From Leptolyngbya sp. FACHB-8 (GTDB lineage: Bacteria; Cyanobacteriota; Cyanobacteriia; Elainellales; Elainellaceae): DNA of 64,000 bases. The position numbers and the translations under genes are program-made. Every line of letters begins with the position of its first letter. The stretch's first letter is position 1. Shown piece after piece: positions 3,141-24,009 of this stretch. A model generated the notes under the pieces. That model saw nothing but the letters and a program-made list of their open reading frames with translations. It was not told where the DNA came from and did no database searches. Location of the stretch: the NCBI RefSeq assembly GCF_014695575.1, contig NZ_JACJOO010000074.1, positions 1 through 64,000 on the forward strand, read 5' to 3'.

Positions 3141-3172
3141 TCTCTATATAATTTCAGTTTTTCTTCGTAAAA

Positions 3173-6189: not shown

Positions 6190-6471
6190 TAGTGCTTAAA
6201 AGCAAATCTATATAATTGAGGCTCAAAGCCTAAAATGCTTACAAATCAAGTACTTGGGTGCTTAAAAGCAAATTATAGCTGACCATGCAATAATTTTTAC
6301 TCAGAGCTTTATTTCATCCTCTTTATGATTTTATATAGGATCTTGCATAGGACGATTTGAAGGCAAAAGATGAGGCATAACCTGTCTCTATTACATATGG
6401 TCTTGGGTTTTGCTCAAAATCTGCTGATGTTTAGAAAACCCTCCGTCTGGTTCAATCCCTATAAATTTCTA

Positions 6472-6720
6472 TCAAGGAATGATAATATTAGGCTGTTGCG
6501 GCTGCACCAACTCGATCGCACCCAACTTCTCTCCCAGCTCGGCCAGGTGGTCGGTGAATTGGTTGACATTATCAGCAACAGTGGCAGCTCCAGCCGTTAG
6601 CCCAACTACAGCTGTCCTATTAGTCATCAGACGCTTTAGGCGACGACCTACTTTGTTGCGACCGGGTAGCTCTAGGCTTTTCAGATTCTTCTCCAGATCC
6701 TCCAGTTCTATAAGATCTCT
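6472..6720 (-). pseudogene. C-terminal remnant of an unrecognised protein
   Basis: The minus strand reads 82 codons without a start codon, from an upstream stop at 6721-6723 to TGA at 6472. It includes GRNKVGRRLKRLMTNRT, a hydrophobic AVVGLTAGAATVAD stretch and a tail ending PNIIIP. The amino-acid pattern looks coding (alternating helix, one hydrophobic segment), so I read it as the 3' end of a lost gene. Family unknown. The rest of 6190-6868 shows no gene, only a short direct repeat (GTGCTTAAAAGCAAAT) at about 6192 and 6257. Confidence 0.4.
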
Positions 6721-6868
6721 TTATATGGATTAGTAATTTCTTTTGGAAAAGTTTTAGATTTGTTCTTTCAATAGCTTAACAAGTCAAAACAGTTGGGTAA
6801 TATTAGCTTAGTGTTCTGCGAATGATGACAGGCGATGCGAGTTAGACTTCTGTTCTTGGAGAACTTTA

Positions 6869-8146
6869 ATGGAAGCCAGAGACTCTTACCTGTCAGGAGA
6901 GCCGCCATCGTTAGATTTGACTACCGTCCCGGATATTCTTTTAACCCAAGCCCGAGAAAATAAAGCTTCCATTGCAAAGACCTTGCAGAATGTTTTAAGG
7001 CTTATCCGCTCTCATCTAGACATGGAAATCGCCTTTATATCTGAGTTTCGGGATGGAAGGCGTTTCTTTCGGTATATCGATTCAAAACATGAAGAAACTC
7101 CAATTCAAGTTGGGGGCTCGGGCCCTTTAGATGAAAGCTATTGCCAGCGAGTTGTCGATGGACGCCTACCTGAGTTAATTACAGATGCCTTGCAATGTCC
7201 GGCAGCTCTGGAATTAGAAGTCACGATAGCTCTGCCTGTTGGAGCCCATCTCAGTGTTCCGATCCGTTTAGGCAATGGTCGTCTCTATGGTACCTTCTGT
7301 TGCTTTAGCCGTGAGCCTGACCCAACTCTGGTCGAGCGAGATCTTTCCCTAATGCGGGTATTTGCAGAATTTGTCAGCCAGCAAATTGAGCAAGACCTTG
7401 TCGCAAATCAAGCCCGCCGTGAAGTAACCGAGAGAATTCTTTCAGTCTTAAACACCTCAAGTATTGGTATTGTCTACCAGCCAATCTACTGTGTCTCCCA
7501 GGACCGTTTTATTGGTTTTGAATCCCTCACCCGATTCATAGCTGATCCACCTCAAGCCCCAAACGTTTGGTTTGATGAGGCCCAACAGGTAGGTTTGAGC
7601 GAGCAACTTGAAATGCTTGTGATTAGTAAGGTTCTTCAGGACATGCCTCAATTTCCTGACGATGTGTATATTACGCTCAACGTAGCCCCCGAAAATATCC
7701 TAAGTGGAGCAATTACCCGGTCTCTAGTCAATGCTCCCCTTGAGCGGATTGTTTTGGAAGTTACAGAGCATGCGCCTATCGATGATTATGAAACCTTTGA
7801 ACGCACGCTCTTCCCACTCCGAGACCAAGGGACACGATTAGCTGTAGATGACGCAGGGGCGGGATACGCCAGCTTTCGACACATCCTGAACCTGAAGCCC
7901 GACATCATCAAACTGGATATGAGCCTTACACGCGGTATACACCTGGATGCTGCCCGCCGTGCACTTGCCACAGCTCTCATTACATTTGCTGGAGAAACAG
8001 AGAGTCAAATTGTGGCCGAAGGGGTTGAAACCATAGCTGAATTGGAAGTGTTAAAAAAACTGCGGGTTAACAAAGTGCAGGGGTACTTGATGGGCCGTCC
8101 CATGCCGAGTTCTGATGCGACTGCATTAGTGCAGACGTCCAGCTAA
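6869..8146 (+). CDS. GAF-EAL cyclic-di-GMP phosphodiesterase (copy 1)
   Basis: A 425-residue cytoplasmic protein with an N-terminal GAF domain (about 35-180) and a C-terminal EAL domain (about 192-415). EAL enzymes hydrolyse c-di-GMP to pGpG. The metal- and base-binding residues are all present: Q204 in YQPI, E218 in FESL (a Ser replaces the Ala of EAL), N271, E297 and E300, D327-D328, K348, E384 and Q404. It should therefore be active. No GGDEF domain is present. The GAF lacks an obvious chromophore Cys. The ATG follows TTGGAGAACTTTA, giving an SD-like GGAG. The paralogue at 12807-14084 differs by about 46 residues by my count, most densely in the first 35 residues. Confidence 0.93.
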   Translation: MEARDSYLSGEPPSLDLTTVPDILLTQARENKASIAKTLQNVLRLIRSHLDMEIAFISEFRDGRRFFRYIDSKHEETPIQVGGSGPLDESYCQRVVDGRLPELITDALQCPAALELEVTIALPVGAHLSVPIRLGNGRLYGTFCCFSREPDPTLVERDLSLMRVFAEFVSQQIEQDLVANQARREVTERILSVLNTSSIGIVYQPIYCVSQDRFIGFESLTRFIADPPQAPNVWFDEAQQVGLSEQLEMLVISKVLQDMPQFPDDVYITLNVAPENILSGAITRSLVNAPLERIVLEVTEHAPIDDYETFERTLFPLRDQGTRLAVDDAGAGYASFRHILNLKPDIIKLDMSLTRGIHLDAARRALATALITFAGETESQIVAEGVETIAELEVLKKLRVNKVQGYLMGRPMPSSDATALVQTSS

Positions 8147-8149
8147 ATT

Positions 8150-8290
8150 TCCACCGGCCTGGTAATCATTAGAGCAATTAGCTAGTGGGGTTAAGGCAGA
8201 GGGGTGAAGTCCTTCTTAAGACTTGGTAAATTAAGCGTGCCGTATCCTGACGTCAAGCCCGTCCACGGAAAATTCAAGTGGTTGTGACAC
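8150..8290 (+). other. Conserved 3' region after GAF-EAL copy 1
   Basis: About 140 bases between the stop codon and the terminator are retained in both copies of the duplication, with blocks such as AAGACTTGGTAAATTAAGCG unchanged. A small hairpin AGGGG-TGAA-CCCCT is perfect in copy 2 and partly mismatched here (AGGGG-TGAA-GTCCT). It could be a 3'UTR element or a small RNA; no coding potential is visible. Confidence 0.35.
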
Positions 8291-8325
8291 CCCGCCAAAA
8301 CCATCTGAGGGGCGGGATTTTTTTT
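8291..8325 (+). terminator. Rho-independent terminator after GAF-EAL copy 1
   Basis: CCCGCC and GGCGGG arms around a 14-base loop, followed by a run of eight T. The same terminator is present in copy 2 at 14229-14267. Confidence 0.85.
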
Positions 8326-8421
8326 GAACAAGTGGAGGCGAACGCCCTAGGGGACAAATTTCCTGTCTCTCTGCTGCGGTTCAAGGGAATATTCTAGGGA
8401 GGGAGCGGGAGGGCGATCGCT

Positions 8422-8697
8422 ATGTTTGAAACGCACTATTTTGTGACGGGCTCTTATGGAGTGCTTTCAAACAAAGGAGAAGTTTCGTTCTCGTTCCGCA
8501 AAAAAGTTTCGTTGCAGCACGACGGTACACCCGAAGGCGAGAGCGAGGAATTGCATAGATTGATTGAATCGCTGGAGAAGGAAGCGATCGCACAGCATGG
8601 ACAACACTGGCGTGCTCAAGGTTTTACAGATTCTGATGCTAGGTGGCAGCTATTAACCATCACACCCCTCGCTACTTCTAGAAGGAGCGAGCCATGA
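8422..8697 (+). CDS. Small hypothetical protein (91 aa)
   Basis: Soluble 91-residue protein with no recognised domain. The N-terminal half looks beta-rich (THYFVTGSYGVLS, EVSFSFRKKVSLQ) and the C-terminal half helical. The start codon sits directly after a HIP1 site. Its stop codon overlaps the start of the next gene (ATGA at 8694-8697), so the two are probably translationally coupled. I see no paralogue in the window. Confidence 0.65.
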   Translation: MFETHYFVTGSYGVLSNKGEVSFSFRKKVSLQHDGTPEGESEELHRLIESLEKEAIAQHGQHWRAQGFTDSDARWQLLTITPLATSRRSEP

Positions 8698-8864
8698 CTG
8701 AAGCAATCAAGCGGTTGAGTATGGGTGTGGGGTTACTGCTCATTACTGCTCTGCTCATCTATGCAGGGATGAGTGGAAGTCGGGAGCTGCCTGAGAAAAT
8801 ACTCATCATTCTCGTGGCTGCTATAGGTGGATTCGGGGCAGGTTATGTACTTGGGAGAGGGTAG
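8694..8864 (+). CDS. 56-aa two-TM membrane peptide
   Basis: A short gene overlapping its upstream neighbour by ATGA and preceded by AGGAGCGAGCC. It encodes two predicted membrane segments (about residues 10-25 and 36-52) ending in the motif GGFGAGYVLGRG. A clear paralogue at 19591-19764 ends GSFGAGYALGRSF, with conservation concentrated in the second helix. That supports both as real genes despite their size. The function is unknown; small two-helix proteins in accessory regions may be phage- or toxin-like, but nothing here proves it. Confidence 0.65.
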   Translation: MTEAIKRLSMGVGLLLITALLIYAGMSGSRELPEKILIILVAAIGGFGAGYVLGRG

Positions 8865-9172
8865 GGGTGATCGCCCCTCGCTGTTGATGGAAAAAGGCCC
8901 GGAAGAGGTGCTACCGAGCGCGACTGAATTAGAAAATCTATTCCAAATCCTCTCACCATCCACGGCAACAACCTACAGCAGATCCACCAGTAGGCCGGGG
9001 GGAGTGGTCAGGGGGATAGGTGATGATGCGGTAGTGACAGCAGGGTGCTTAACGTTGCCCAGGTTACAGTGAATCGGTTGGGGACGAGGTAAGGCGGCAG
9101 CAAAGAAGAACTAGGCACTGCCCCTCTCTCGACTCCATGGGATACTTTTGACAATGATAGAAGACCGATCGC

Positions 9173-9343
9173 ATGCCTAAGACCTACTACCAAGACTGCT
9201 TTTACTGTGACGTTAACAACTGCACTTGCGAACATCCTCGGGGCTGCGAGTTTCTGGCTTATATCGTGCGGTGTGCAGGGGCAGGGGTAAGGATGGATGC
9301 CTCAGACTGTCCTGGATTTAAATCAGTGGAGGGCACACGGTGA
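9173..9343 (+). CDS. 56-aa Cys-rich peptide
   Basis: Pattern: DCFYCD, then C-T-C, HPRGCEFLAYIVRC and a closing DCPGFK. The seven cysteines in CxxC-like spacing suggest metal binding. The adjacent downstream gene (9340-9567) encodes a paralogue with the same order of motifs. The two overlap by GTGA and are presumably one transcript. Starts at ATG 9173 beside a GATCGC site. Confidence 0.6.
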   Translation: MPKTYYQDCFYCDVNNCTCEHPRGCEFLAYIVRCAGAGVRMDASDCPGFKSVEGTR

Positions 9344-9567
9344 TTGAAAGCTGTTGTTATGACTGCATCTTCTGTGACCCATTGAATGAGGAGTGCGGGG
9401 GGTGCATTCATCCCTATGGGCCTGAATTTATGGCTTACATGGATAGCTGTCAAATGACAGGAATAGTTGTCAGCCCTCTAGACTGCCCTGTGTTTAAACC
9501 AGTAAAGAGTGAATTACTAAAGACCACACCCCAACAGCAAGGGATTCAGAGCCATGACCGACGATGA
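9340..9567 (+). CDS. 75-aa Cys-rich peptide, paralogue of the upstream gene
   Basis: GTG start at 9340 overlapping the previous stop. Motifs: CCYDCIFCD, EECGGCIHPYGPEFMAY, then C and DCPVFKPV. The arrangement matches the 56-aa upstream peptide (DC-x-x-CD, HP-x-G-x-EF-x-AY, DCP-x-FK), so the pair arose by tandem duplication. The last 20 codons extend beyond the shared domain and overlap the next gene by 14 bases. Metal binding is an inference from cysteine spacing. Confidence 0.6.
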   Translation: MIESCCYDCIFCDPLNEECGGCIHPYGPEFMAYMDSCQMTGIVVSPLDCPVFKPVKSELLKTTPQQQGIQSHDRR

Positions 9568-9772
9568 ACTAAAAGCACAGGTTTCCGAACTCGTTCCTTT
9601 CATAGAAGCGCTAACGGATGAAGAATTCGTGAATCTGCTACATACAGTCAGCAGAATGCAGATTAGTCGAGGACTGCAAGCGGAAGACGTAACCCTGTAC
9701 CCTGCAACCCCGGAGGAAATCATAGCCATTCTTGAAGCTATTAAGAACCCAGGCGCTCGCCCCAAGCAATGA
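9554..9772 (+). CDS. Small acidic hypothetical protein (72 aa)
   Basis: Helical, acidic 72-residue protein (MTDDELKAQVSELVPF at the start; TPEEIIAILEAIKNPG near the end). It begins inside the end of the Cys-rich gene and completes a five-gene run on the plus strand from 8422. No family recognised. The 9773-10254 stretch that follows holds a hairpin repeat and no convincing gene. Confidence 0.6.
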   Translation: MTDDELKAQVSELVPFIEALTDEEFVNLLHTVSRMQISRGLQAEDVTLYPATPEEIIAILEAIKNPGARPKQ

Positions 9773-9840
9773 ACCAACTGCGGAGGGCAGTTCATCCGTG
9801 AGTGACAATCGCTCAATGCCTAATTTTTCCCGTCGCTAAA

Positions 9841-9958
9841 CTGCTTATATAGGCCTATATTTTTCCAAAATCACGTCTACCGCCCATGAAAAACCCGCGT
9901 CGTCTGCGAGTACGACGCGGGAATCAAAACTTACGTGTTTTGAATTGTGCCACAAGTG
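9841..9958. repeat. Hairpin/GAATTGTG repeat, copy a
   Basis: Order of parts: CTTATATAGGCCTATATTTTT, ATGAAAAA, a perfect hairpin CCCGCGTCGT/ACGACGCGGG at 9894-9921, CAAAACTTA and GAATTGTGCCACAAG, ending at a HIP1 site. The same parts in the same order occur at 16655-16768, and the core recurs at three other places. The A-run before the stem would be a U-tract for transcripts on the minus strand. Confidence 0.65.
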
Positions 9959-10254
9959 GCGATCGCAATGCCTTAAACAAAAATGCCCGACCGCAGAAGG
10001 CAGGGCGAAAGTAGATTAATGTTTGAGATCTTTATAGTACACCTGAGCTGAATGCCCACTACAACTCCACCAGCAGAGCGGCGGCAGTCATTGTGGGAAA
10101 AAGTGGGGGTGGCTTGGGTGATTGGGTTATGCCAGAATGAGTGCCATTCCATCACCCATCCTTCGGGATAGTCGATGAGGGGTGATATACCTTGCCTAGA
10201 TCTGGTCATGGAAGGGATTACCCTTGAAAAAGCTGAAAAAGCGAGGCAGTTGCG

Positions 10255-10530
10255 ATGCTTACTAATGAAGCAGAGATCAAATTGCAAGCCCGAATGATAG
10301 CAGCTCGTTCCCCTCTGTCAGCCGATGAGGCTGAATGCCTTATCCGCTTCACCGACGAGGACACAAAGCTACTGGAGCAATGCGAGGAATTGGCAAAAAG
10401 GAGCGTAAGCTTTGCCTCCATAACTCAGTGGCTTGAGGGCAAGATAGGACGGGTTGAACCTGGTTCTCAGGCCTACACCTTCTGCGAAGCGGTTCTAAAC
10501 CTCGTCTCCAAACGTGAGCGGCAGCGCTAA
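10255..10530 (+). CDS. 91-aa hypothetical protein, first of a paralogous pair
   Basis: Starts MLTNEAEIKLQARM and ends in FCEAVLNLVSK. The paralogue 130 bases downstream (10664-10942) shares NEAEIKL-x-ARM, a following EAE-L-R segment, SI-x-WL-x-x-K-x-G-x-x-E and the Y-x-FCEAVLNL block. Helical and soluble; function unknown. The conservation between copies shows selection on the protein. Confidence 0.65.
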   Translation: MLTNEAEIKLQARMIAARSPLSADEAECLIRFTDEDTKLLEQCEELAKRSVSFASITQWLEGKIGRVEPGSQAYTFCEAVLNLVSKRERQR

Positions 10531-10663
10531 TAGACCGATGCAGGGCTGTCCAGCTTGAATACCAAGCCGGGAGATAGCGGTGTGAAATTAGAAACCGATG
10601 TACAACTGAAACAATGACTGCCATCAGGTCAGTTGGGGCTGAAGCCGGAGACAGGCGATTGCG

Positions 10664-10942
10664 ATGCAAGGTAATGAAGCAGAGATCAAGTTAAAAGCAA
10701 GAATGTTAGCAATTCGCCATCCGATCAAGGCAGAGGAAGCCGAGCACCTGGTTCGAACTATATACGGGAACGACGCATTGTTGAATGAGTGCCTAGTGCT
10801 CCTGAGTCAAGGGATACGCCTTACTTCCATCAACGAATGGCTTCAGCAAAAGCTGGGGCTGATTGAAAGGGAATCGCAGACGTACAAATTCTGTGAAGCG
10901 GTTCTCAATCTCTCGTTAGGAGCCCAGCGCAACTTACTATGA
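10664..10942 (+). CDS. 92-aa hypothetical protein, second of a paralogous pair
   Basis: Starts MQGNEAEIKLKARM and contains SINEWLQQKLGLIE and FCEAVLNLSLG. It is diverged from the 10255-10530 copy but collinear along its whole length. Its ATG is preceded by GCGATTGCG, as is the ATG of the first copy (GTTGCG). Its stop lies inside the start of repeat copy b. Confidence 0.65.
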   Translation: MQGNEAEIKLKARMLAIRHPIKAEEAEHLVRTIYGNDALLNECLVLLSQGIRLTSINEWLQQKLGLIERESQTYKFCEAVLNLSLGAQRNLL

Positions 10943-11005
10943 AAAACCCGCGCTGTTTGGGGTCACGCGGGCTATGACTGTAGTTTGCTGAATTGTGACA
11001 TGGAG
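10939..11005. repeat. Hairpin/GAATTGTG repeat, copy b
   Basis: ATGAAAAACCCGCG, loop, CGCGGG, about 18 bases, then GAATTGTGACA. It begins at the stop codon of the 92-aa gene. A further A-run hairpin (AAAAAGCCCACC ... GGTGGG, 11044-11074) follows. Confidence 0.6.
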
Positions 11006-11047
11006 AACAGGGCGACAGGTCTACCCAAAGGGCGAACGCCACAAAAA

Positions 11048-11076
11048 GCCCACCTCAAACAGCAGTAAGGTGGGTC
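11048..11076. terminator. A-tract hairpin
   Basis: CCCACC/GGTGGG arms after AAAAA, followed by GTCTTAG. A U-tract would form on minus-strand transcripts. Together with repeat copies b and c it accounts for most of the gene-free 10943-11399 stretch. Confidence 0.45.
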
Positions 11077-11200
11077 TTAGTCCGTGATTAATTCAATTCA
11101 AATTATCCTTCGAAAAGGATAGTAGAAAAGGTTGTCTGGAATACAAAGAGCTCTAGCAGCGCAATCGCCAACAAAACTAGGGATCGCTCTGTGGCCCGCA

Positions 11201-11269
11201 GAAAAGACCCACGCTTGTTGAATTTGGTGCAGACGCGGGTCGGGTCATGGCACTGAATTGTGCCATAAG
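11201..11269. repeat. Hairpin/GAATTGTG repeat, copy c
   Basis: AAAAGACCCACGC, long loop, GCGGGT, then GAATTGTGCCATAAG about 13 bases later. Same order of parts as copies a, b, d and e. Confidence 0.55.
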
Positions 11270-11399
11270 CCATAGCAAGTTTTGTCCACCGGGAGGGCGA
11301 TTTGAGAGCGATCGCTCTAGCCATTAATCCTCGCTTCTCACCAGCCCCAAGAAATCGCAAGCCAGAATTGCGAGGCAGGCTTAGCCATCGGTCCTATTG

Positions 11400-11552
11400 G
11401 AATTCAATTCGCTTTCAATGTTTTCCAAAGCATCCACCATCTTGAATGCAGGCACAATACGCCAACTTAACAACCCTAATTGCTGTCGTGTTTTCCCAGT
11501 AGCTGCTTCAATCCGTAGCAATAGACTTTCAAGCCGACTAGAATATGGGCTG
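11400..11552 (-). pseudogene. Fragment of the 79-aa protein family
   Basis: The minus strand encodes SSRLESLLLRIEAATGKTRQ, QLGLLSWR and KMVDA, matching the C-terminal half of the intact gene at 15722-15940 (RIEAATGKPRQQLGLLDWR, TVDA). The upstream half is missing: the frame meets a stop just before the conserved block. Nucleotide similarity extends through GCTTTCAATG and AAGCATCCACC beyond the coding end. Confidence 0.6.
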
Positions 11553-11666
11553 CATTATAATTTGACCAACTCAAAAACTTGACAAACAACGGCTTTTAAG
11601 TCGTTAGAAGGGGTTGTCAGCTATTTAGAGATTAGACAAGAACAAGTAAGCGGAGCAACTAGCTAG
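11543..11666 (+). pseudogene. Broken copy of the 86-aa gene at 17169
   Basis: The plus strand reads YNLTNSKT-stop-QTTAFKSLEGVVSYLEIRQEQV. The intact relative at 17169-17429 has Trp in place of the stop (KTWQTTAFRSLEGVVSYL). Most differences between the two copies fall at third codon positions, which supports a protein-coding past. From here to 11972 nothing is coding; a short TTTGTGTTGCTT segment at 11701 recurs at 12021. Confidence 0.55.
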
Positions 11667-11972
11667 GCGATCGCCTCACAGCGCTCTACCCCTACATTCT
11701 GTTTGTGTTGCTTGGGGCTCAATCTGCCCGAATGCTTGAGCACCCCTAAGTACCGGGAACGTGTTACTGGAGGAACTACTCTATAGTTACCTCCGGCACT
11801 GAGTTCGATGAGAATACCCAAATAAGAAACTCCGCTGAATAACGGAGGAAACGTTCCTTACTTCTTGAACGCGCTCTAACTTTATTGGATTGGATGTAAA
11901 AAATTTGTGCAACCAACGAAAGGGATACGCGTAGCAAGTGGGGAAAAGATTATTCACCCTGCTGTCATTCTC

Positions 11973-12190
11973 CTATGAGGGAAAGCGATTCACCTTACAG
12001 TGCCCTATCCCTACCCTCAGTTTGTGTTGCTTGCAGGTCGATGCTTCCGAAAGTTCGAGCCCCCTGGATGTCGAGGATGTGCTGCTGGGGTCTGCCTTGC
12101 CGTTGTCAGAATTTATCTCGAAATGTAGGTGAGGGCCGGTAGAGTTGCCTGTGCTGCCCATCAAGGCGATAAGGTAGCTGATCTGCTAGT
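11973..12190 (-). pseudogene. M23 (LytM-type) peptidase C-terminal remnant
   Basis: The minus strand contains LIALMGSTGNSTGPHLHFEI, the hallmark of the M23 metallopeptidase active site (HLH with a preceding G-STG-STG). The catalytic domain upstream of this motif is absent, and the tail after it is Ser/Thr-rich. It is a fragment of a peptidoglycan endopeptidase gene, perhaps from a phage or host envelope gene; only the last ~70 codons survive. Confidence 0.65.
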
Positions 12191-12207
12191 AATTGTGAGT
12201 ATTGCCA

Positions 12208-12423
12208 CTACTCCTCCAATGGGTATCGGTTGTAAATCTCTTGTGCCTCCCGTGGAGTAACCTCCCACGTAGGAAATAGCAGATAACCTGGTCGAACTAG
12301 TCGCTTTGCAACAGGAAGGCTAATGCTTCTATACAAAAACCTTTCAGGAGAATTCGGACTCCAAACATCAACTTCGACCCCTGGCTCATTGGGATCAATC
12401 ACAATCTGAAGGTCAGGTGGCAT
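12208..12423 (-). CDS. Small hypothetical protein (71 aa)
   Basis: From the ATG at 12423 the protein begins MPPDLQIVIDPNEPGVEV and ends EVTPREAQEIYNRYPLEE. An upstream in-frame ATG at 12516 would add 31 residues with an unlikely CCC-rich run, so I prefer the shorter form. Soluble, mixed beta/alpha, no family recognised. The 12424-12806 stretch that follows shows no gene, only the start of the second duplication at 12743. Confidence 0.5.
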   Translation of the reverse strand: MPPDLQIVIDPNEPGVEVDVWSPNSPERFLYRSISLPVAKRLVRPGYLLFPTWEVTPREAQEIYNRYPLEE

Positions 12424-12806
12424 AAATTTTGAGCAGCAGCAACACAGCAGTGAAATACAACAGCATTCACTGGCGTCACTTTTAATACATGTTGAAAGGT
12501 GTTTCCTCTCTATCAATCTGACCTACCCTCTGAAGACTTGAGAGAGTAAGGCCGAATGATAGATTTCACTATTCAGTATAGATTAATACTGTGCTTTATG
12601 GATAAATACGTAGATACTGGCATGAAGGGATGGCCTCATGTACCCATAAGCGCCTATGAAGGGTTAGTTGCAGCAGAGGTGTGACAAAGAACCGTCTGAA
12701 TGAAGACAGCTAAGAAGCTGAGATCCTTGTGTACTATCTACATAGTGTTCTCTAAGTGATGATAGGCAGCCGATGCGAGTCAAACTTCTGTTCTTGGAGA
12801 TCTTAA

Positions 12807-14084
12807 ATGGAAGCCCCAGACTCTTGCCTGTCAGTAGAGCGGCTATCATCAAACTCGACTGCCGTCCCAGATATCCTTTTAGCCCAAGCCCGAGAAGATG
12901 AAGCTTCCATTGCAAAAACCTTGCAAAACGTTTTAAGGCTGATTCGCTCTCATCTAGACATGGAAATCGCCTTCATCTCTGAATTTCGAGATGGAAGGCG
13001 TTTCTTTCGATATATCGATTCAGAGCAGGAAGAAACTCCAATTCAAATTGGAGACTCAAATCCTTTAGAGGAGAGTTATTGCCAGCGTGTTGTCGATGGA
13101 CGTTTACCAGAGTTAATTACGGATGCTTTGCAATGTCCAGCAGCACTGGAATTAGAAGTCACTGTAGCACTGCCCGTTGGCGCACATCTCAGTGTTCCGA
13201 TCTGTTTAGGAAATGGCTGTCTCTATGGTACCTTCTGCTGCTTTAGCCGTAAGCCAGACCCTACCCTGATGGAGCGCGACCTTTCCCTGATGCGAGCATT
13301 TGCAGAATTTGTCAGCCAGCAAATTGAGCAAGACCTTGTTGCAAACCAAACTCGCAATGAAGTCAGAGAGAGAATTCTTTCAATTCTGAATTCGTCAAGT
13401 ATTGGCATTGTTTACCAACCCATTTACTGTGTCTCCCAGGCCCGTTTTATCGGTTTTGAATCCCTCACTCGATTCATGGCTGACCCACCTCAAGCCCCAA
13501 ACGTTTGGTTTGATGAGGCCCAACAGGTAGGTCTGAGCGAGCGACTTGAAATGCTTGTGATTCACAAGGTTCTTCAGGATTTGCCTCAATTTCCTGACGA
13601 TGTGTATATTACGCTCAACGTGTCTCCTGAAAATATCTTAAGTGGAGCAATTACCCGGTCTCTGGTAGACGTCCCACTGGAGCGGATTGTTTTAGAAGTT
13701 ACAGAGCACGCGCCTATCGATGATTATGGAACCTTTGAACGTATGCTCTCCCCACTACGAGACAAAGGGGTACGATTGGCTGTAGATGATGCAGGGGCGG
13801 GATACGCCAGCTTCCGGCACATTCTGAATCTGAAGCCAGACATTATTAAGCTGGATATGAGCCTTACCCGCGATATACATCTAGACGCTGCTCGCCGTGC
13901 CCTTGCTACAGCTCTCATTACATTTGCTGGAGAAACGGAGAGTCAAATTGTGGCCGAAGGAGTTGAAACCATAGCTGAATTGGAAGTGTTAAAAAAACTG
14001 CGGGTTAACAAAGTGCAGGGGTACTTGATGGGCCGTCCTATGCCGAGTTCCGATGCAACTGTATTAGTGCAGGCGTCCAACTAA
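12807..14084 (+). CDS. GAF-EAL cyclic-di-GMP phosphodiesterase (copy 2)
   Basis: 425 residues with the same GAF plus EAL architecture as 6869-8146. Every catalytic position listed there is conserved (YQPI, FESL, LNVSPEN, LEVTEH, VDDAGAG, IIKLD, AEGVET, VQGYLMG). Roughly 46 substitutions separate the two, including R-to-C changes in the GAF at two positions (PICLGNGCLYG). Retention of both intact suggests each is functional or the duplication is recent. Copy 2 may respond to a different ligand through the altered GAF surface; that is conjecture. Confidence 0.93.
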   Translation: MEAPDSCLSVERLSSNSTAVPDILLAQAREDEASIAKTLQNVLRLIRSHLDMEIAFISEFRDGRRFFRYIDSEQEETPIQIGDSNPLEESYCQRVVDGRLPELITDALQCPAALELEVTVALPVGAHLSVPICLGNGCLYGTFCCFSRKPDPTLMERDLSLMRAFAEFVSQQIEQDLVANQTRNEVRERILSILNSSSIGIVYQPIYCVSQARFIGFESLTRFMADPPQAPNVWFDEAQQVGLSERLEMLVIHKVLQDLPQFPDDVYITLNVSPENILSGAITRSLVDVPLERIVLEVTEHAPIDDYGTFERMLSPLRDKGVRLAVDDAGAGYASFRHILNLKPDIIKLDMSLTRDIHLDAARRALATALITFAGETESQIVAEGVETIAELEVLKKLRVNKVQGYLMGRPMPSSDATVLVQASN

Positions 14085-14099
14085 ATTTCCGCAGTCCTA

Positions 14100-14228
14100 G
14101 TAAGCATTAGAGCAATGAGCTAGTGGGGTTAAGGCACAGGGGTGAACCCCTTCTTAAGACTTGGTAAATTAAGCGTGCCGCATCCTGAAGTTAAGCTCGT
14201 CCACGGAAAGTTCAATTGGTTGTGACAT
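14100..14228 (+). other. Conserved 3' region after GAF-EAL copy 2
   Basis: Counterpart of 8150-8290. Shared blocks include GCTAGTGGGGTTAAGGCA, TTCTTAAGACTTGGTAAATT and CGTCCACGGAAA. The internal hairpin AGGGGTGAACCCCT is perfect here. Confidence 0.35.
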
Positions 14229-14267
14229 CCCGCCAAAACCATCTGAGGGGCGGGATTTTTTCTTTTT
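14229..14267 (+). terminator. Rho-independent terminator after GAF-EAL copy 2
   Basis: CCCGCC/GGCGGG stem with a 14-base loop and TTTTTTCTTTTT following; homologous to 8291-8325. Confidence 0.85.
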
Positions 14268-14377
14268 AGACAAGTGGTGGCGAACCCAGTAGGAGCGAAG
14301 TTTCTGTTCCTCTGCTGCGGTTCTAGGGGACATTCTGTGAGGAGAGGGAAGGGGTAGGAGAGGGCAGCAAACTAACT

Positions 14378-14455
14378 GAGGAGCATGTGCTAATTCGCTA
14401 TGGGTCAGATGGAGAGGTTGTTGGACTCACAATCCTGAACGCCAGCAAGCGCTAG
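14378..14455 (+). pseudogene. DUF2283-like C-terminal remnant
   Basis: The frame KLTEEHVLIRYGSDGEVVG then LTILNASKR-stop resembles the closing segment of DUF2283 proteins (Y-D-x-x-G-x-VVG-x-x-ILNAS). No N-terminal half or start codon is present. It lies between the second duplication and the coiled-coil gene. Confidence 0.4.
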
Positions 14456-14583
14456 AATACCTGGAAATCTCAAGTGCCCCGCCACGACTGTGGATGGAAG
14501 CCGAGAAATTTTTCGCTGATAGCATCCAAAACCGATGCTCTCTCGTACAAGAAAAGTACAGCTGTGTCTGGAGTCGTGTTCTC

Positions 14584-14874
14584 ATGAATGCTGACGACCT
14601 TCGGCAACGTTTACTTGAGTGCGATCGCTACATTCTTGAATTGCAGTATGAGCTTACAAAAACCTTGGAATATAAACAGGTATTACTGAAGCACCATGCT
14701 GCCCTGTCGTCCCATGAACAACCTGGCTCAGAAATTGACGCTAGACTTCGAGGGCTAGAGAAAGAAATAACTCGGGCAAGTACGACCTTGGAAAGGCTCC
14801 GCTCCAATATTGCTAGTTGCTCAGATTTACGGGCAAGCATGGAGCGTTCGTGCCCTTCAGATATTGATGGATGA
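14584..14874 (+). CDS. Coiled-coil hypothetical protein (96 aa)
   Basis: From ATG 14584 the protein starts MNADDLRQRLLECDRYILE and is almost entirely helical with heptad-like leucines (LQYELTKTLEYKQVLLKHH; LRGLEKEITRASTTLERL). An upstream in-frame ATG at 14494 would add 30 residues. No domain recognised. The following 300 bases (14875-15184) hold two HIP1-like sites and a short inverted repeat near 15000 (TGCTCATCGTG/CACGATGAGCA). Confidence 0.55.
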   Translation: MNADDLRQRLLECDRYILELQYELTKTLEYKQVLLKHHAALSSHEQPGSEIDARLRGLEKEITRASTTLERLRSNIASCSDLRASMERSCPSDIDG

Positions 14875-15184
14875 AGCGTGCATGGCGATCGCCTCCATCA
14901 GGATGGAACTGACATATATTGGGGCTGGTCAGTGGCAGCAGGACTGCTAGGAATGCACCACTTAGGGGGCATCTGTCAGATTTATGCTCATCGTGTTTAG
15001 AGGTTGTAGAGCACGATGAGCATGAATGAATTTTGGGGAATATCTGGGGGGATAAGTTGGGGCGACCGCCTCAGTAGATCTGTCAAAAAAGATACCCCAA
15101 CTTCCTCTTATTGAGCAATGCCCCTGCTCTAAGGAAACTGTAAACAGGAAGAAGCCCTCAATCCTCCCTTTGAAAGTGGTCCCT

Positions 15185-15619
15185 ATGGTTCAGCAACCCG
15201 TTGAGAGTAAACTTGATCTTCAAGGGTTAAGGATTCTACTTGCCGAGCAGGACTGGAACACAGCTGAGCTGCTTCTCCTAATCTTGAAGAGTGCTGAGGC
15301 AGAAGTTGTTAAAACAGACTCAGCGTATGCAGCTCTGCATCACTTGCTAAACGAGCCTATAGATCTGGTCGTCTGTAACATTCAACTACCTGACATGCAC
15401 GGCCATGAGCTAATTCAGCAAATCCGCTCCAGACCCGAGAGGCGCATCAACCAGATACCAGCGATCGCACTTATTCTTACGGTCAATTCGTACTCCTACG
15501 CAATTGCTGAGCGCACAACGACAAGCGCAGGTTTTGACCGATTCATTTCTCTACCCGCAGAACCAGAAGAAATTGTAAATACAATTCTTGCTCTAGCCGG
15601 AAAGGCCAAGGGGCAGTAG
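15185..15619 (+). CDS. Degenerate receiver-domain protein (pseudo-receiver)
   Basis: 144 residues with the CheY-like fold pattern: LRILLAEQDWNTAELLL, IDLVVCNIQLPDMHGHELIQQIR, PAIALILT, AGFDRFISLPAEPEEIV. The phospho-acceptor aspartate is replaced by Asn65 (CNIQLPD instead of CDIQLPD), and the invariant Lys of KP is Leu (SLP). The paired acidic residues near the N-terminus are reduced to E21-Q22. It therefore should not be phosphorylated in the usual way and may act as a constitutive or protein-binding module. No output domain. An upstream TTG at 15170 is a possible alternative start; the ATG is preferred. Confidence 0.8.
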   Translation: MVQQPVESKLDLQGLRILLAEQDWNTAELLLLILKSAEAEVVKTDSAYAALHHLLNEPIDLVVCNIQLPDMHGHELIQQIRSRPERRINQIPAIALILTVNSYSYAIAERTTTSAGFDRFISLPAEPEEIVNTILALAGKAKGQ

Positions 15620-15721
15620 GGGCGTCATGCAATAGTGAATTCACCCCAGTATCATTAGTCAAGCGATGAGACTCAGGCAAGCTTAACTATCTTGTCAAAA
15701 GTTAACTCGCTTTCAATGACC

Positions 15722-15940
15722 TTAAGCATCCACCGTTCCAGATGCAGGTGGAGTACGCCAATCTAGCAGCCCTAATTGTTGTCGCGGCTTTCCAGTTGCG
15801 GCTTCAATCCGCTGCAATAAATTTTCGATGCGATTGTACTGGTATGTAAAATTTGCTCCAATCTTGATGCGACGTGATAGGTCACTCAGCGCTTCTACAA
15901 GGATTGCAGCATCTTGATCTGTTAGTAACAGGTCATTCAT
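15722..15940 (-). CDS. Small helical hypothetical protein (72 aa)
   Basis: Begins MNDLLLTDQDAAILVEALSD and ends LLDWRTPPASGTVDA. The leading seven codons of a longer frame (ATG 15961) are also possible. Predicted mostly helical and soluble. A broken copy is at 11400-11552, and a shorter trace (AAAGCATCCGCCATCTG) lies near 17126, showing the family has spread within this block. Confidence 0.6.
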   Translation of the reverse strand: MNDLLLTDQDAAILVEALSDLSRRIKIGANFTYQYNRIENLLQRIEAATGKPRQQLGLLDWRTPPASGTVDA

Positions 15941-16169
15941 GATTATTTTGTACACAAACAAAGAAACACATCTAACAGTAGTTACAGAAGGCTGGATACA
16001 GGAGTTGTATGCACCTATACAACCTGCTGATGGAGGTTTTCTTGCTTAACTAAGAAATTGTGAGAATTCTGTGAGGCGATCGCCATCGTTTTCAAAAAAA
16101 CACTCCTGGTGGAGTGGGCGGTTCTTGATCTCAGGTGTAACAGTACAGGAGGGGATATAACGACAGAAC

Positions 16170-16592
16170 ATGACTGAATTTAAGATGCTGGATGCTATCG
16201 CGGCTGAAATTGGTTCTCTTACAGTGGAGAATAGTAAATTTCGCCGAGAAATAGAATTACTTCAGAATGAAGTTGAATTGCTAAAGCAGCGGGCTACTGA
16301 CGCTGACACAAATTTTGAGGCGATTAGGCAAGATGCCGGAAAACTGAGACAGGCGTTAAGTGAATTGCGTGCTAATGCTGCACAGCTTAGAGCCGATGCC
16401 GCGCAAATGAGAGCGAATAGAGCACAAGGTTTGGCTGATGAAAAGCAACAAGCAGCCGACCAAGATTTACAGCAACAAGATTCTTCCCAAATTACGTCTT
16501 CTCAGATAGAGGCAGACAAGGCTCAGGATTGGGCAGATCAAGCACAAGCAAGAGCCGATATTGCTCAAAGGAAAGCTGACGAGCCGCAGTGA
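16170..16592 (+). CDS. Ala/Gln-rich coiled-coil protein (140 aa)
   Basis: The N-terminal part has a leucine heptad coiled coil (about 1-60). The rest is built from loosely repeated RADAAQ-like units (LRANAAQLRADAAQMRA; ADQAQARADIAQRKAD), separated by a Gln/Ser linker around residues 104-117. No signal peptide or membrane segment. Repetitive Ala-coiled coils are typical of structural or tail-fibre-like proteins, but I cannot assign a function. Confidence 0.65.
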   Translation: MTEFKMLDAIAAEIGSLTVENSKFRREIELLQNEVELLKQRATDADTNFEAIRQDAGKLRQALSELRANAAQLRADAAQMRANRAQGLADEKQQAADQDLQQQDSSQITSSQIEADKAQDWADQAQARADIAQRKADEPQ

Positions 16593-16654
16593 AGCCCTAA
16601 GTTGATAGAACCAAGCCTGCGCAGGCGATCGCAGGGATTGGGCTCTAGGGCAAC

Positions 16655-16768
16655 GACTTATATAGACTTATGTTTTTTGAAATTCTCACTTTCCTCAATG
16701 AAAAACCGCATCACTTTTGGGTGCAATGCATGGGGGGGGAACCAAAACTTATGAGGATTGTGCCCTAG
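16655..16768. repeat. Hairpin/GAATTGTG repeat, copy d
   Basis: GACTTATATAGACTTATGTTTTTT, then AATGAAAAACCGCAT, a G-rich right arm, CAAAACTTATGA and GGATTGTGCCC. It is collinear with copy a over its whole length. It overlaps the 3' end of the minus-strand gene 16749-17000. Confidence 0.6.
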
Positions 16769-17000
16769 GGTGCTGCTGGATGCGGGGCGATTGAACTGTG
16801 GTCCCTAGCAAAGGCAGAGAGTCGCGTTCAGCTTTAATTCCCATTTCGGATGCCTCATTCCATCCGCTCATATAAGACGGATCCTCTGGCAGCTGGGGAG
16901 ATGGATAAAGGTCAAGATAATAGTCCACAAATCCTGTTGCTTCTCGGATTGCAGGTGGCTGAACACACAGACGCAAAAGGTATCTGTCCACATTAGTCAT
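16749..17000 (-). CDS. GW-NEA family small protein, member 1
   Basis: 83 residues. The core GFVDYYLDLYPSPQLPEDPS then YMSGWNEASEMG is shared with 17910-18131 and 18341-18511. The C-terminal ~25 residues (after KAERDSLP) are encoded inside repeat copy d and are not shared, so they may be an extension caused by repeat insertion. No family recognised. Confidence 0.6.
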   Translation of the reverse strand: MTNVDRYLLRLCVQPPAIREATGFVDYYLDLYPSPQLPEDPSYMSGWNEASEMGIKAERDSLPLLGTTVQSPRIQQHPRAQSS

Positions 17001-17168
17001 GTATCAATCATGCTCAATTCATCTCACTAAATTCATTGAACAGTAGGATTGTGAGAATCTTGTGTGCGTGGGCTGCGGCTTCATGGCGTTTTCATGTGAG
17101 GCGATCGCCTTCTCTGTTGACGATCAAAGCATCCGCCATCTGTGCATCAGACGGTGCATTCTTAGCGG

Positions 17169-17429
17169 ATGAGAAAAGGCCCGCTGGCTTGTCACACTAG
17201 AAATGTGGCCCTGTTGATGACATCTACTTTAATGAACAATTCAAGATACCCTGCAACAAGTGTGGCTCTTAAGCTTGGTTATTACTTTTCCGTAAGCCAT
17301 CGAGGGTATGGTCGGTATTATAATTTGACTAATATAAAAACTTGGCAAACGACGGCTTTCAGGTCATTAGAGGGGGTTGTTAGCTATCTACAGGTTAGAC
17401 AAGAACAAGTAAACAGAGCAATCAGCTAA
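17169..17429 (+). CDS. Small hypothetical protein (86 aa)
   Basis: The C-terminal half (YYNLTNIKTWQTTAFRSL then EGVVSYLQVRQEQVNRAIS) is conserved in a broken copy at 11543-11666, with mostly synonymous differences. The N-terminal ~45 codons have no support and the true start may be further downstream. The stop is followed directly by a HIP1 site in both copies. Confidence 0.5.
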   Translation: MRKGPLACHTRNVALLMTSTLMNNSRYPATSVALKLGYYFSVSHRGYGRYYNLTNIKTWQTTAFRSLEGVVSYLQVRQEQVNRAIS

Positions 17430-17528
17430 GCGATCGCCAAAAGAAAGCTCACCATCGAGGGGTGCGTGGATATTTGACCTGTGCTGCTGGCTTTGTCGAA
17501 TGGCGGCGATCGCTAACGCCCCCCAATA

Positions 17529-17562
17529 AAAAAACCGCCCCTAGGAGGGCGGGCGGTTGTTT
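17529..17562. terminator. A-tract hairpin
   Basis: AACCGCCC/GGGCGGTT stem after a run of seven A, followed by GTTTGT. The surrounding 17430-17909 stretch shows no convincing gene; open frames crossing this hairpin look spurious. Confidence 0.5.
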
Positions 17563-17909
17563 GTATCAGATTGTATCCGTCCTCATTATTCCACCGATGA
17601 AGGTCGCCCTCCACAACAGTTTGGCAGTGGATGAGGTCTTAGGTAGCAATCGCATCCATCAAAGCAAAAGCTTGCATCCTGTAGGCAATGCGGGCTGAAA
17701 TCAAGACTATTGGGATTGTTGCACGAGTGGCTATCGCAAATACTCTCGCAGCAGCCCAACAAAAAGCCTTGGCAGCAAAGGCCAAGGCTTATCAGGTATG
17801 CTTTATTGCTCTATCATCCCACCCACACCGGGCACCGACCGACAGCAGAAACACTAATAGAGCGGCAGAAATTGTTGAGGGTGCTAGGTGGGGGTGCGGA
17901 GAATGCGAG

Positions 17910-18131
17910 TCAGTTGAACGATAGCAAGTTTAACGAGGGCGGCTCTCTGTTTTTAGATTTAACCCCTATTCTGTCAGCATCATCCCATCCACGCATATAG
18001 AATTCATCGTCGGGGAACCGAGGGGCTCCAAAGGAATCAAGGCAACGATCCATAAAGCCAGCTGATTTGCGACTGTGAGGAGGAAGGCCAACTGGCCAAC
18101 CAAAGTTATTACTCATCTCAATATCACTCAT
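17910..18131 (-). CDS. GW-NEA family small protein, member 2
   Basis: From ATG 18131: MSDIEMSNNFGWPVGLPPHS, then RKSAGFMDRCLDSFGAPRFP, DDEFYMRGWDDADRIG. Close to member 3 (RKSAGFVD, YMCGWNEA) and more distant from member 1. A longer frame from 18221 exists, but member 3 also begins near MSD, which favours the shorter start. Soluble, unknown function. Confidence 0.6.
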   Translation of the reverse strand: MSDIEMSNNFGWPVGLPPHSRKSAGFMDRCLDSFGAPRFPDDEFYMRGWDDADRIGVKSKNREPPSLNLLSFN

Positions 18132-18340
18132 CTTGACGACGGCAAAACTCGGTAGGTACTGGCTTAAGATTCCCCATTCGTCACCCATGTATCGGTTCGG
18201 TTGATGGGCGATCACCCACATAAAAGAAAACCGCCATCAAATTGACAGCGGCAACCCCTTCAAAGGTCTTGGCTTAGAATTCCCAGCGATCGCCCAGCGC
18301 CTAACTGTCAGGAGCGGATGTAGGGTTGATGAGCAGCAAT

Positions 18341-18511
18341 TTATTTATTCTGAGTTCTAGCGCCCATCCCTTGAGCCTCATTCCACCCACACATATAGAC
18401 TGCGTCATTAGGCAACCGAGGGAATGCAAAAGAATTCAGGTAATGATCTACAAAACCTGCTGATTTGCGGCTCCGAGGAGGAAGATCAGCGAGCCAACTA
18501 AAGTCACTCAT
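18341..18511 (-). CDS. GW-NEA family small protein, member 3
   Basis: 56 residues from ATG 18511: MSDFSWLADLPPRSRKSAGF, VDHYLNSF, PRLPNDAVYMCGWNEAQGMG. It lies on the same strand as member 2, about 210 bases away; the two are probably a tandem duplication. The 629 bases that follow (18512-19139) hold only hairpins and repeat copy e. Confidence 0.6.
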   Translation of the reverse strand: MSDFSWLADLPPRSRKSAGFVDHYLNSFAFPRLPNDAVYMCGWNEAQGMGARTQNK

Positions 18512-18785
18512 CTCAACGTTATCCACTAGGAATGTACTCCAGATTACGGTTTTCCGAGTGAGAATATGGAGCGTGTTTCTACTCCTGTTTTGTACCAAAA
18601 ACCCCCATTTTTTGCGGGGAATGCGGAGCAGAGGTGGAGGCTCCTAGCGATCGCTCAAGGCAAGCAAAACTACACACCACTGAAAGAAGTGCGGGAAGAC
18701 CCGAAATGTATTTGGAACTATGCCATAAGGGAAAAAGCTAGGGCTGTCAGTAGAGGAGAGCAGCAGAGACACGCCCTTAGTAAAA

Positions 18786-18807
18786 CCCCCAGCAACAGAG
18801 CTGGGGG
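18786..18807. terminator. GC-rich hairpin
   Basis: CCCCCAGC and GCTGGGGG arms with a six-base loop, preceded by TAAAA, so the U-tract would lie on the minus strand. Confidence 0.5.
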
Positions 18808-18915
18808 AACCATTCGATTGATCTTGACTATATCTTCCCACTCTATCGAGCAGCAACTCTACAGCAGATCCACGAGGAAATTAGTGACACTGGCTGAGAA
18901 TATGGGATTGCCTCA

Positions 18916-18981
18916 AATAAAAGCCGCAGTGCGGTGGAGTGCACGCAGCGTCAGTGCTAATCAATTGGATTGTGTCACAAG
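18916..18981. repeat. Hairpin/GAATTGTG repeat, copy e
   Basis: AATAAAAGCCGCAGTGCGG then, about 38 bases on, GGATTGTGTCACAAG. It is the most diverged copy of the family and is followed by another A-tract hairpin at 19000. Confidence 0.45.
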
Positions 18982-18999
18982 GGACGATCGTCAATAAAA

Positions 19000-19021
19000 A
19001 GCCCGCCTTCAATGGTGGGCT
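19000..19021. terminator. A-tract hairpin
   Basis: AGCCCGCC/GGTGGGCT stem preceded by AATAAAA, shortly after a GATCG site. Confidence 0.5.
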
Positions 19022-19139
19022 GAAATTTGACCTATGCTTACTGCTCGCATTGTTACATGTATGAGGCGAGCGGCCCCCCTGCCTGACCGTAGCAGACATT
19101 CGACCTGCTTCTTTTGTGCTAGATGTGAATATAGAGTCG

Positions 19140-19436
19140 ATGGAAGTGATCCCTATGCTGCTCAATGCAACCAGACGCATGATCTTGAAGATTAAGACGG
19201 TAGCTCCCCTGATGCAGGGGAAATGGGAATTTCGCCACGGAGAAGAAGTTATCAAAGCTGAAACCCTGGATCCAGGGGTCGCTACCATCAAAGTTCCTCT
19301 GGTTCCTGGAGATGCCCTTGATGTAGAGGTACAAGTGGCAACCCAATACGACTACAACCACGAAGTAGTCTCCACGCGCTACACCATAACCAAGGTCAAC
19401 GCTGTCCTATTGCAAGCAGCATTGGCCAGGGCATAA
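19140..19436 (+). CDS. Beta-rich hypothetical protein (98 aa)
   Basis: From ATG 19140: MEVIPMLLNATRRMILKIKT, a long alternating-hydrophobic stretch (EVIKAETLDPGVATIKVPL; DALDVEVQVATQYDYN) suggestive of a beta-sandwich, and an Ala-rich end. An ATG at 19116 would add eight residues. No signal peptide. A clean terminator follows 48 bases later. No family recognised. Confidence 0.6.
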   Translation: MEVIPMLLNATRRMILKIKTVAPLMQGKWEFRHGEEVIKAETLDPGVATIKVPLVPGDALDVEVQVATQYDYNHEVVSTRYTITKVNAVLLQAALARA

Positions 19437-19483
19437 GAGCGATCGCTCTCACTATCTCACTTTGGAACTCCATAGTCCTTCTC

Positions 19484-19516
19484 AAAAGCCCCCAGCTTGC
19501 AGCATGGGGGCTTTTT
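19484..19516 (+). terminator. Bidirectional rho-independent terminator
   Basis: AAAAGCCCCC / GGGGGCTTTTT with a 12-base loop. A decayed copy of this terminator together with its HIP1-flanked upstream sequence lies at about 23345-23430. Confidence 0.85.
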
Positions 19517-19590
19517 ACTGTGGTTGCGATCGCAATCGTATTGAAGACCACGTAAGATCCTGGTGAACTAGCAAAACGAAGGGACGTTGC

Positions 19591-19764
19591 ATGAATGAGC
19601 AGATGAAAGGGGTAGTTGTAGGAGCCGTTTTTCTCCTTGCTACCACTGCATTTGTCTATGAGGGTATAGCTGAAGACAAGCAGCTATCAGAGCAGGTCAT
19701 CTTGGTAACTTTGGCTGGCTTGGGTAGTTTTGGCGCTGGCTATGCACTTGGGAGAAGCTTTTAG
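19591..19764 (+). CDS. 57-aa two-TM membrane peptide, paralogue of 8694-8864
   Basis: Two hydrophobic helices (about residues 7-23 and 36-53). The C-terminal motif GSFGAGYALGRSF parallels GGFGAGYVLGRG in the copy 11 kb upstream. The connecting loop is acidic (EDKQLSEQ versus RELPEK). No partner gene overlaps its start, unlike the first copy. Function unknown. Confidence 0.6.
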   Translation: MNEQMKGVVVGAVFLLATTAFVYEGIAEDKQLSEQVILVTLAGLGSFGAGYALGRSF

Positions 19765-19934
19765 GGCTGCGATCGCCCATGACCGCCGAGATGGCTAAGA
19801 ATGCAGACGATTGGCTTTTGCGGGGAGCGATCGTCCCCACCCACACTATTTAGACCACTCCCCTCGGACAGAGATACTTTGGTGCAGAACTAGAGTTAGA
19901 TGATGGTTATTAATAAATCTTTCGCTGTAAATAC

Positions 19935-20102
19935 ATGGATAACCTGCACCTGAATCTTGATGAGCTTGTGCTACTTGAATCAGCACTACTGAGCTATTAC
20001 CAGGCTTGCAAGGAAGTCCACGGGTACGGTAGCAAAACCCTCGCTGTCTCAGCATTAGTCAAGAAGGTTCAGCAGAGAATTGACTTTGAAAAACAAGCAT
20101 AG
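19935..20102 (+). CDS. Small helical hypothetical protein (55 aa)
   Basis: MDNLHLNLDELVLLESALLS at the start and SALVKKVQQRIDFEKQA at the end; soluble and helical throughout. Directly followed by a HIP1 site and an A-tract hairpin, as for several other small genes here. No paralogue seen. Confidence 0.45.
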   Translation: MDNLHLNLDELVLLESALLSYYQACKEVHGYGSKTLAVSALVKKVQQRIDFEKQA

Positions 20103-20128
20103 AGCGATCGCCACCGCCCGTAATAAAA

Positions 20129-20152
20129 AGCCCACCCCATGAGGAGCGGGCT
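20129..20152. terminator. A-tract hairpin
   Basis: AGCCC/GGGCT-based stem after TAATAAAA; same style as the hairpins at 17529 and 19000. Confidence 0.45.
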
Positions 20153-20252
20153 GTTCTCTATACCAGGTGTATCTACCGTCATTCTCCTACCCATGCCCGT
20201 CACCTTCCACAGAAGATTCACCAGCACTTCAGCAAATAGGTAAGGGCGATTG

Positions 20253-20360
20253 GTGGAGGCGCAGAGAGCAGAAGAGATAAAAGAGGTGGTAGCAAAACTG
20301 GGCTATATTGCCGATCTCATAGAAGAGGACGATTGCTTACCAGCAGAAACGGTTCAGTAA
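20253..20360 (+). CDS. Possible 35-aa acidic peptide
   Basis: GTG start, then VEAQRAEEIKEVVAKLGYI and a short acidic tail to TAA. The amphipathic helix looks protein-like but there is no paralogue or clear ribosome-binding site, so this is only a candidate. Confidence 0.25.
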   Translation: MEAQRAEEIKEVVAKLGYIADLIEEDDCLPAETVQ

Positions 20361-20443
20361 GTTTCTCGTCTAAAGCTTAACTGATGTGGCTTAGATACAT
20401 TGTTTTGGGTTTGTTCCTCACCCTGAAAACCCAAGAGACAAGA

Positions 20444-20902
20444 TCAAGCCTCTGAGTCAAGAGCTAGTGAACTCTTTAAGAGGATACCAATGGTAGGGTT
20501 TCCCATACCTTTTGTGGGAAACCCTTTCATCTTAGCTGCAAGGATGAAGACTCCATTTGAAACGTAGGGGCAAAATCCTTGAGCCTTTCCCCATTTCTCT
20601 GCCCGGTGCTTCCAATGGTAGGACGAACGCTGCTTATCAGTGATCGCTTTGGTAGGTGTTAGTTTTGCCAGGTAACACAACGCAGTAAAAAGCTGTTCCT
20701 GTAAACCTACCTCGTCTTTGATAGACAGCATTTGGTTACGAAATTCCTGCCACCTCTCCAAGGTCGCATGTCCAGATAGGCTACTTTCTCCTACGAGCCC
20801 GTATCCGGCAGAAGTTAAACGTTCATCACTGCTGAGAATATCCAATGCTTGCTCTATTTCTGTTTTTGTTGGCACTGGATAGCTGGCTTTGCTCATAGTC
20901 AC
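20444..20902 (-). CDS. Hypothetical protein (152 aa)
   Basis: Soluble protein with helical N-terminal half (EIEQALDILSSDERLTSAGY) and a C-terminal segment WKHRAEKWGKAQGFCPYVSN, then GVFILAAKMKGFPTKGMGNP. No family recognised. It lies about 290 bases downstream of the DUF262 gene on the same strand; the intervening 20903-21191 stretch has no gene. Confidence 0.6.
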   Translation of the reverse strand: MTMSKASYPVPTKTEIEQALDILSSDERLTSAGYGLVGESSLSGHATLERWQEFRNQMLSIKDEVGLQEQLFTALCYLAKLTPTKAITDKQRSSYHWKHRAEKWGKAQGFCPYVSNGVFILAAKMKGFPTKGMGNPTIGILLKSSLALDSEA

Positions 20903-23850: not shown

Positions 23851-24009
23851 TAAAGTGATGGGCTTGAGAGTAAAGAAGTACTCGTTCTTCATCAGCAAAC
23901 CGATCCAGAATCCGTAGTTCTTCAAAAGAAATTCTTCCAGCTTACGGTAGATGGGTTTTGGTTTTAGGAGCATCTACCTCGATGCCAGCCACCGCATCAA
24001 TTAAACTTA

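Follow-up and report, generated by a model that had tools for sequence, protein, structure and literature searches.

To our knowledge, cyanobacteria lack Rho and make use of few intrinsic terminators. In Synechococcus elongatus, only about 22% of transcription units end intrinsically (PMC13289151). Multi-copy tandem small RNAs occur in cyanobacteria (PMC9045159), and the HIP1 palindrome has been tied to recombination in earlier work (PMC4390886). Integron attC sites were recognized in this study by paired RYYYAAC and GTTRRRY boxes around an imperfect inverted repeat. We analysed a stretch of 64,000 nt from Leptolyngbya sp. FACHB-8 (the window), for which an earlier note had described five copies of a hairpin with a conserved tail and had likened them to the attC sites that separate gene cassettes. 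Our analysis supports the presence of such an element in the gaps between small, partly paralogous genes of one genomic island, and the repeat family is real and larger than first described. We consider it moderately probable that the copies are parts of minus-strand intergenic intrinsic-terminator/3'-UTR modules, which were multiplied with gene blocks in plasmid-derived DNA.

Results

A two-module repeat family

Read on the minus strand, the full unit consists of a 15-nt box (CYYRTGNNACAATYC, the tail of the earlier note reversed), a short linker, a hairpin (H1), a conserved stretch of about 95 nt (R) and a second hairpin (H2). At the five places first noticed (a to e), the described sequences and their order were confirmed. 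The box-linker-H1 part of copy a lies at 9883-9958 (57.7 bits with model R2) and has a terminator-like hairpin with a 10-bp stem and T5 on the minus strand; that of copy b lies at 10936-11006 (56.5 bits), after the small gene 10664-10942, where homology with contig C47 continues through the element. Copy c (11197-11269; leave-one-out E of 0.17-0.49) has a hairpin of -14.6 kcal/mol with T4, copy d (16694-16771; 47.6 bits; weak stem, -6.1 kcal/mol) overlaps the 3' end of the minus-strand gene 16749-17000, and copy e lies at 18913-18983 (47.0 bits). About 45 nt beyond H1, reported as common to a and d, were borne out by the alignment of these two copies, the only ones to have them (9841-9885, no strand assigned). 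The first description had seen the repeat only in part: it overlooked copy f (17660-17729; 68.8 bits), three clear copies on the 4.3-kb contig C12 (g, 2595-2664; h, 3152-3229; i, 3946-4020) and a weaker, probably true copy on C47 (12075-12146; 28.5 bits). C12 was among the weak further places given by a sequence-only model of the five copies. All copies in the window are on the minus strand.

Since models R1 to R3 were built from the copies that they recover, we quote leave-one-out values, a fair test that looks for each copy by means of a profile of all the others; the strong window matches of R1 were the five copies only, on which it had been trained. With these five, the value was about 2e-4 for both a and b, 0.03 for e, 0.17 for c and 0.8 for d. 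After the addition of f to i, the values were 1.4e-5 for a, 7e-6 for b, 4e-4 for d, 1.5e-7 for f, 2e-13 for g, 2e-12 for h and 2e-7 for i, and neither c (0.49) nor e (0.65) was recovered on sequence alone with the nine copies. Copy e nevertheless remains a credible member, since an R-H2 module immediately adjoins it and keeps the register seen in f, g and i. None of 500 dinucleotide shuffles reached the pairwise scores of a-b, a-d and a-e, one matched that of d-e and two that of a-c, and the c-d, c-e, b-e and b-d alignments were at background. Of the five, a, b and d are thus firm by leave-one-out profiles, and e is supported by its adjacency to R-H2; copy c, linked to the others by the tail only, is a marginal member.

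The tail recurs across copies as had been claimed, but with variants: f and h have TTGTTGCA, i has TTGGAGCA and the C47 copy has TTTTTACA. Searched by itself with one mismatch, the tail pattern gave 13 matches in the window against 9.1 expected, which is not significant. In coding terms, the box would fit a start codon (RTG NNA CAA TYC) or codons close to the end of a gene, as copy d overlaps the stop of 16749-17000. A conserved protein was considered and rejected by inspection, the frames beyond the box being different and R carrying frame-breaking indels between f and i.

R-H2 has nine firm copies in the window and on C12, each with a leave-one-out value of 1e-7 to 2e-19. The order box-linker-H1-R-H2 is found in f, e, g and i, and other places have one half only. 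All R-H2 copies in the window are on the minus strand: those of units f and e lie at 17529-17650 (63.9 bits with R3; leave-one-out 1.4e-11) and 18782-18908 (65.2 bits; 1.7e-8), one lies beside copy a (9979-10112; 64.9 bits; 1.2e-7), and another directly follows the stop of the minus-strand gene 17910-18221 (17761-17902; 77.6 bits; 1.6e-13). Two more come without box-H1, at 8891-9033 (76.1 bits; 2e-12) and at 20126-20266 (74.4 bits), the latter with a weak NsiR1-like 5' part. Further H2-like terminators, also on the minus strand, were found near b (11040-11084, by hairpin examination) and beside e (18996-19021; R2 match of 26.3 bits at 18991-19063).

A profile search of cyanobacterial genomes, as the earlier note had proposed, returned further copies on contigs of the same genome, but neither module was credibly matched in the other genomes searched. 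The box-linker-H1 part had no match at E<=0.01 in 290 other genomes of the class, the same-genus genome included, and R-H2 had only weak partial matches in 39 relatives (best 9e-4); because the number of candidates scored in each genome was limited, very weak copies may escape this search. Weak R1 and R2 matches on contigs C77 and C56 and in other genomes appeared to be chance matches inside other sequence. Rfam returned nothing for the whole window at the gathering score, and the families brought up by permissive scans (Hrs13, SNORD75, NsiR1, Thr_leader, isrK and anti-hemB) were all weak and well under it.

Hairpins and orientation

A T-tract follows the hairpin on the minus strand in 22 of the 22 hairpins examined. 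Wherever the fold left the tract free, 5-7 of its 8 bases are T; in 4 of the 22, the fold drew it into an extended stem, and the tract was taken from the sequence instead. The A-tracts on the plus side of every hairpin thus correspond to U-tracts of a minus-strand RNA, which points to intrinsic termination on that strand. Between 7 and 22 kb, 28 terminator-like sites were counted against 14.0+/-4.3 expected, 22 of them on the minus strand, whereas the flanking chromosome had no terminator excess (13 against 18.4 expected and 20 against 22.8).

The statement that the stems differ and still pair is correct for most H1 and for all H2 hairpins taken individually; H2 stems vary in sequence between copies while R remains alignable. 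It does not extend to a common H1 structure or to covariation. RNAalifold gave a weak consensus on five copies and, once nine copies were aligned, none for the H1 stem, and H1d and H1f are weak hairpins (-6 to -7 kcal/mol). Because H1 covariation was not above the shuffle control, pairing rests on individual hairpins and not on covariation statistics.

The genomic island

The repeats lie in a genomic island of about 23 kb (2522-25590, no strand assigned) that replaces about 510 bp in the middle of yifB/comM. This Mg-chelatase-like gene is linked to natural transformation in other bacteria. Its 5' part remains at about 2310-2521 and its 3' part at about 25591-26391, and it is intact in the same-genus genome G001. 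The island has a G+C content of 46%, against 52% outside, and carries genes for a Schlafen/AlbA_2 protein, a GmrSD-type protein and two GAF-EAL proteins; a PIN-domain match was weak and below the cut-off. The GmrSD-type restriction protein is encoded at 21192-23063 (PF03235, PF07510). The GAF-EAL blocks at 6793-8413 and 12727-14352 are duplicates with 87% identity over 1.6 kb, and in a scan of genome contigs the homologues of the EAL protein were all distant, from Proteobacteria, Actinobacteria and Chloroflexi. The plasmid and phage records searched held no DNA relative, and viral contigs no relatives of two small proteins. The protein family of genes 10255 and 10664 is confined to this genome and absent from 59 relatives.

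Two other dispersed repeats were observed. One is MITE-like, of about 125 nt with long palindromes and 84-100% identity (36161-36304 and 60999-61142 in the window; L024 6018, L025 3507, L026 4590 and 13006, and L028 6335). The other is palindromic, of about 110 nt (24004-24117 and 56615-56728 in the window; L025 5242; L027 17403).

Related contigs and duplicated blocks

The window contig, C12 and C47 are unlinked in the assembly. The C47 module is bounded by the stop of an intact lysozyme/M23 gene (12183) and by a T-tract, and it faces a convergent small plus-strand gene with the window homologues 10255 and 10664. The alignment of window 10676-11061 to this arrangement continues through copy b without a break, and a remnant of the C47 lysozyme/M23 gene is present at 11985-12172. 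Among plasmids, the best relatives of this gene are on large ones of Nostocales. Near the lysozyme/M23 and small-gene pair, C47 (L062) also holds cas-like genes at 3569-10744 (cas3-type helicase and csb-type proteins, by ORF inspection). C12 carries Dam-type and YspA-type genes. Duplicated blocks take modules along, as between window 17105-17723 and C12 3390-4014 (82%).

A sensitive self-comparison of window 6700-20500, C12 (L023) and C47 supplied the list of block ends. An exact HIP1 (GCGATCGC) lay within 12 bp on at least one side at 14 of 44 block ends, against about 3.9 expected, and on both sides at 7 of the 44, against 0.09 expected, several in register. These figures suggest that paralogous block ends coincide with HIP1 beyond expectation, and more often than with the tail; the coincidence is only suggestive because the ends are non-independent and alignments can be drawn into a shared HIP1. 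In f, g and i, homology stops at the box. Compared with C12, the window has about 500 bp extra from the f box to 18223, comprising R-H2 and the gene 17910-18221. Gain or loss of small genes as units at the copies, which the earlier note had proposed to check, is therefore seen for f/i only, and homology between other blocks often runs through the element or ends at HIP1.

Discussion

The repeats, their common orientation, the hairpins with T-tracts, the duplication of blocks and the island context were directly observed. We propose that H1 and H2 act as intrinsic terminators for minus-strand transcripts. In the intact context, represented by C47, box-linker-H1 would provide the lysozyme/M23 gene with its 3' UTR and terminator. 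Segmental duplication and deletion in plasmid-derived DNA would then have multiplied the modules together with neighbouring small genes, and tandem terminators would have been left between gene blocks. That transcripts do end at these hairpins, and that the modules were retained for this reason, is inferred. Some features speak against the terminator reading: for several modules, a minus-strand gene is not evident upstream, tandem terminators exceed what one gene needs, the sequence of the box and of R is conserved although plain terminators do not require this, the H1d and H1f hairpins are weak, and H1 covariation did not exceed the shuffle control.

The main rival to the terminator/3'-UTR reading is an array of tandem small-RNA genes on the minus strand, in which the box would be an extended -10 element (TGNNACAAT), the linker or R the functional part and H1 or H2 the terminator. 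We regard it as unlikely, although it has several points in its favour. The box fits TGNNA(C/A)AAT in most copies, sequence-conserved stretches stand ahead of variable terminator stems, the modules are in tandem without ORFs between them, one R-H2 copy weakly matches NsiR1 (RF02399) at 20122-20178, and arrays of this kind are already known in cyanobacteria (PMC9045159). However, T hardly ever occupies the first position of the -10 hexamer, where most copies have C, a conserved -35 is absent, and the NsiR1 match has 23.2 bits against a gathering score of 39 and an E value of 0.1-0.6. In addition, what the module forms on C47 is just a 3' UTR, that of a protein gene. A promoter scan of the window gave no clear sites, and no hetF was noticed there. 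A more elaborate version, which we find quite doubtful, has two minus-strand small RNAs, box-H1 and R-H2, alternating in a tandem family on a plasmid, both equipped with a promoter and terminator of their own; this family would have spread with small-gene cassettes through crossovers at HIP1 palindromes and, at least once, at the box.

It is similarly improbable that the copies are a miniature mobile repeat (MITE or small dispersed repeat) inserted into many intergenic sites, with the box as one edge. The end of f, g and i similarity at the box and the presence of copies on several contigs of a single genome would be in line with such a repeat. On the other hand, neither terminal inverted repeats nor target duplications were seen, no consistent ends were noticed in the alignments, no empty site was found, copies are restricted to paralogous, plasmid-derived regions, and modules travel with genes in duplicated blocks.

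The idea that the copies are attC-like cassette recombination sites is largely refuted and we give it very little credence: it draws on the intergenic position between small paralogous genes, on the extra 500 bp in the window relative to C12 with one junction at the box, and on an integron integrase gene elsewhere in the genome, but no copy has paired R''/R' boxes, the GTT of R' is not kept in the tail, shuffles yield as many pairs with attC geometry as the island does and no such pair in the island overlaps a copy, other block junctions are at HIP1 instead of the tail, and the integrase is interrupted and on a different contig. The earlier note was right that the window has no integron integrase, but not for the genome as a whole: on contig C38, such a gene (TIGR02249, 440 bits) is interrupted by an insertion that carries a serine recombinase. 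On C38 (L110), the integrase gene and the insertion, with its 554-aa serine recombinase, occupy 2206-2316, 2576-4240 and 4215-5069, and an attC-like end (GCAATTGTTAGATGC) lies upstream, near 1570. This contig had no matches to R2 or R3.

In the terminator/3'-UTR reading, a dense set of minus-strand terminators in one island would offer a natural test case of how foreign or plasmid-derived DNA orders its transcription, and the same array might serve as a test case for tandem small RNAs. HIP1 at paralogous block ends would provide a concrete, testable case for the old idea of HIP1-promoted recombination.

Compared with known systems, the copies resemble integron attC sites in being intergenic, hairpin-forming and placed between small genes, but they have no R''/R' boxes, and no working integrase was demonstrated. 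Cyanobacterial small dispersed repeats and HIP1-associated modules are also short, lineage-specific and intergenic, with HIP1 at block edges; in contrast, the present unit is a larger one with two hairpins, confined to one island and related contigs. The NsiR1 tandem array of heterocystous cyanobacteria is likewise multi-copy, with units of about 60 nt and a terminal terminator hairpin, whereas its DIF1 promoter and hetF neighbourhood were not seen here and the hairpins of our copies have diverged from each other. With intrinsic (rho-independent) 3'-UTR terminators, the modules share the GC-rich hairpin with a T-tract directly behind it and the position after or between genes; unlike ordinary ones, they form a repeated family with conserved flanks, often in tandem and unusually dense for a cyanobacterium.
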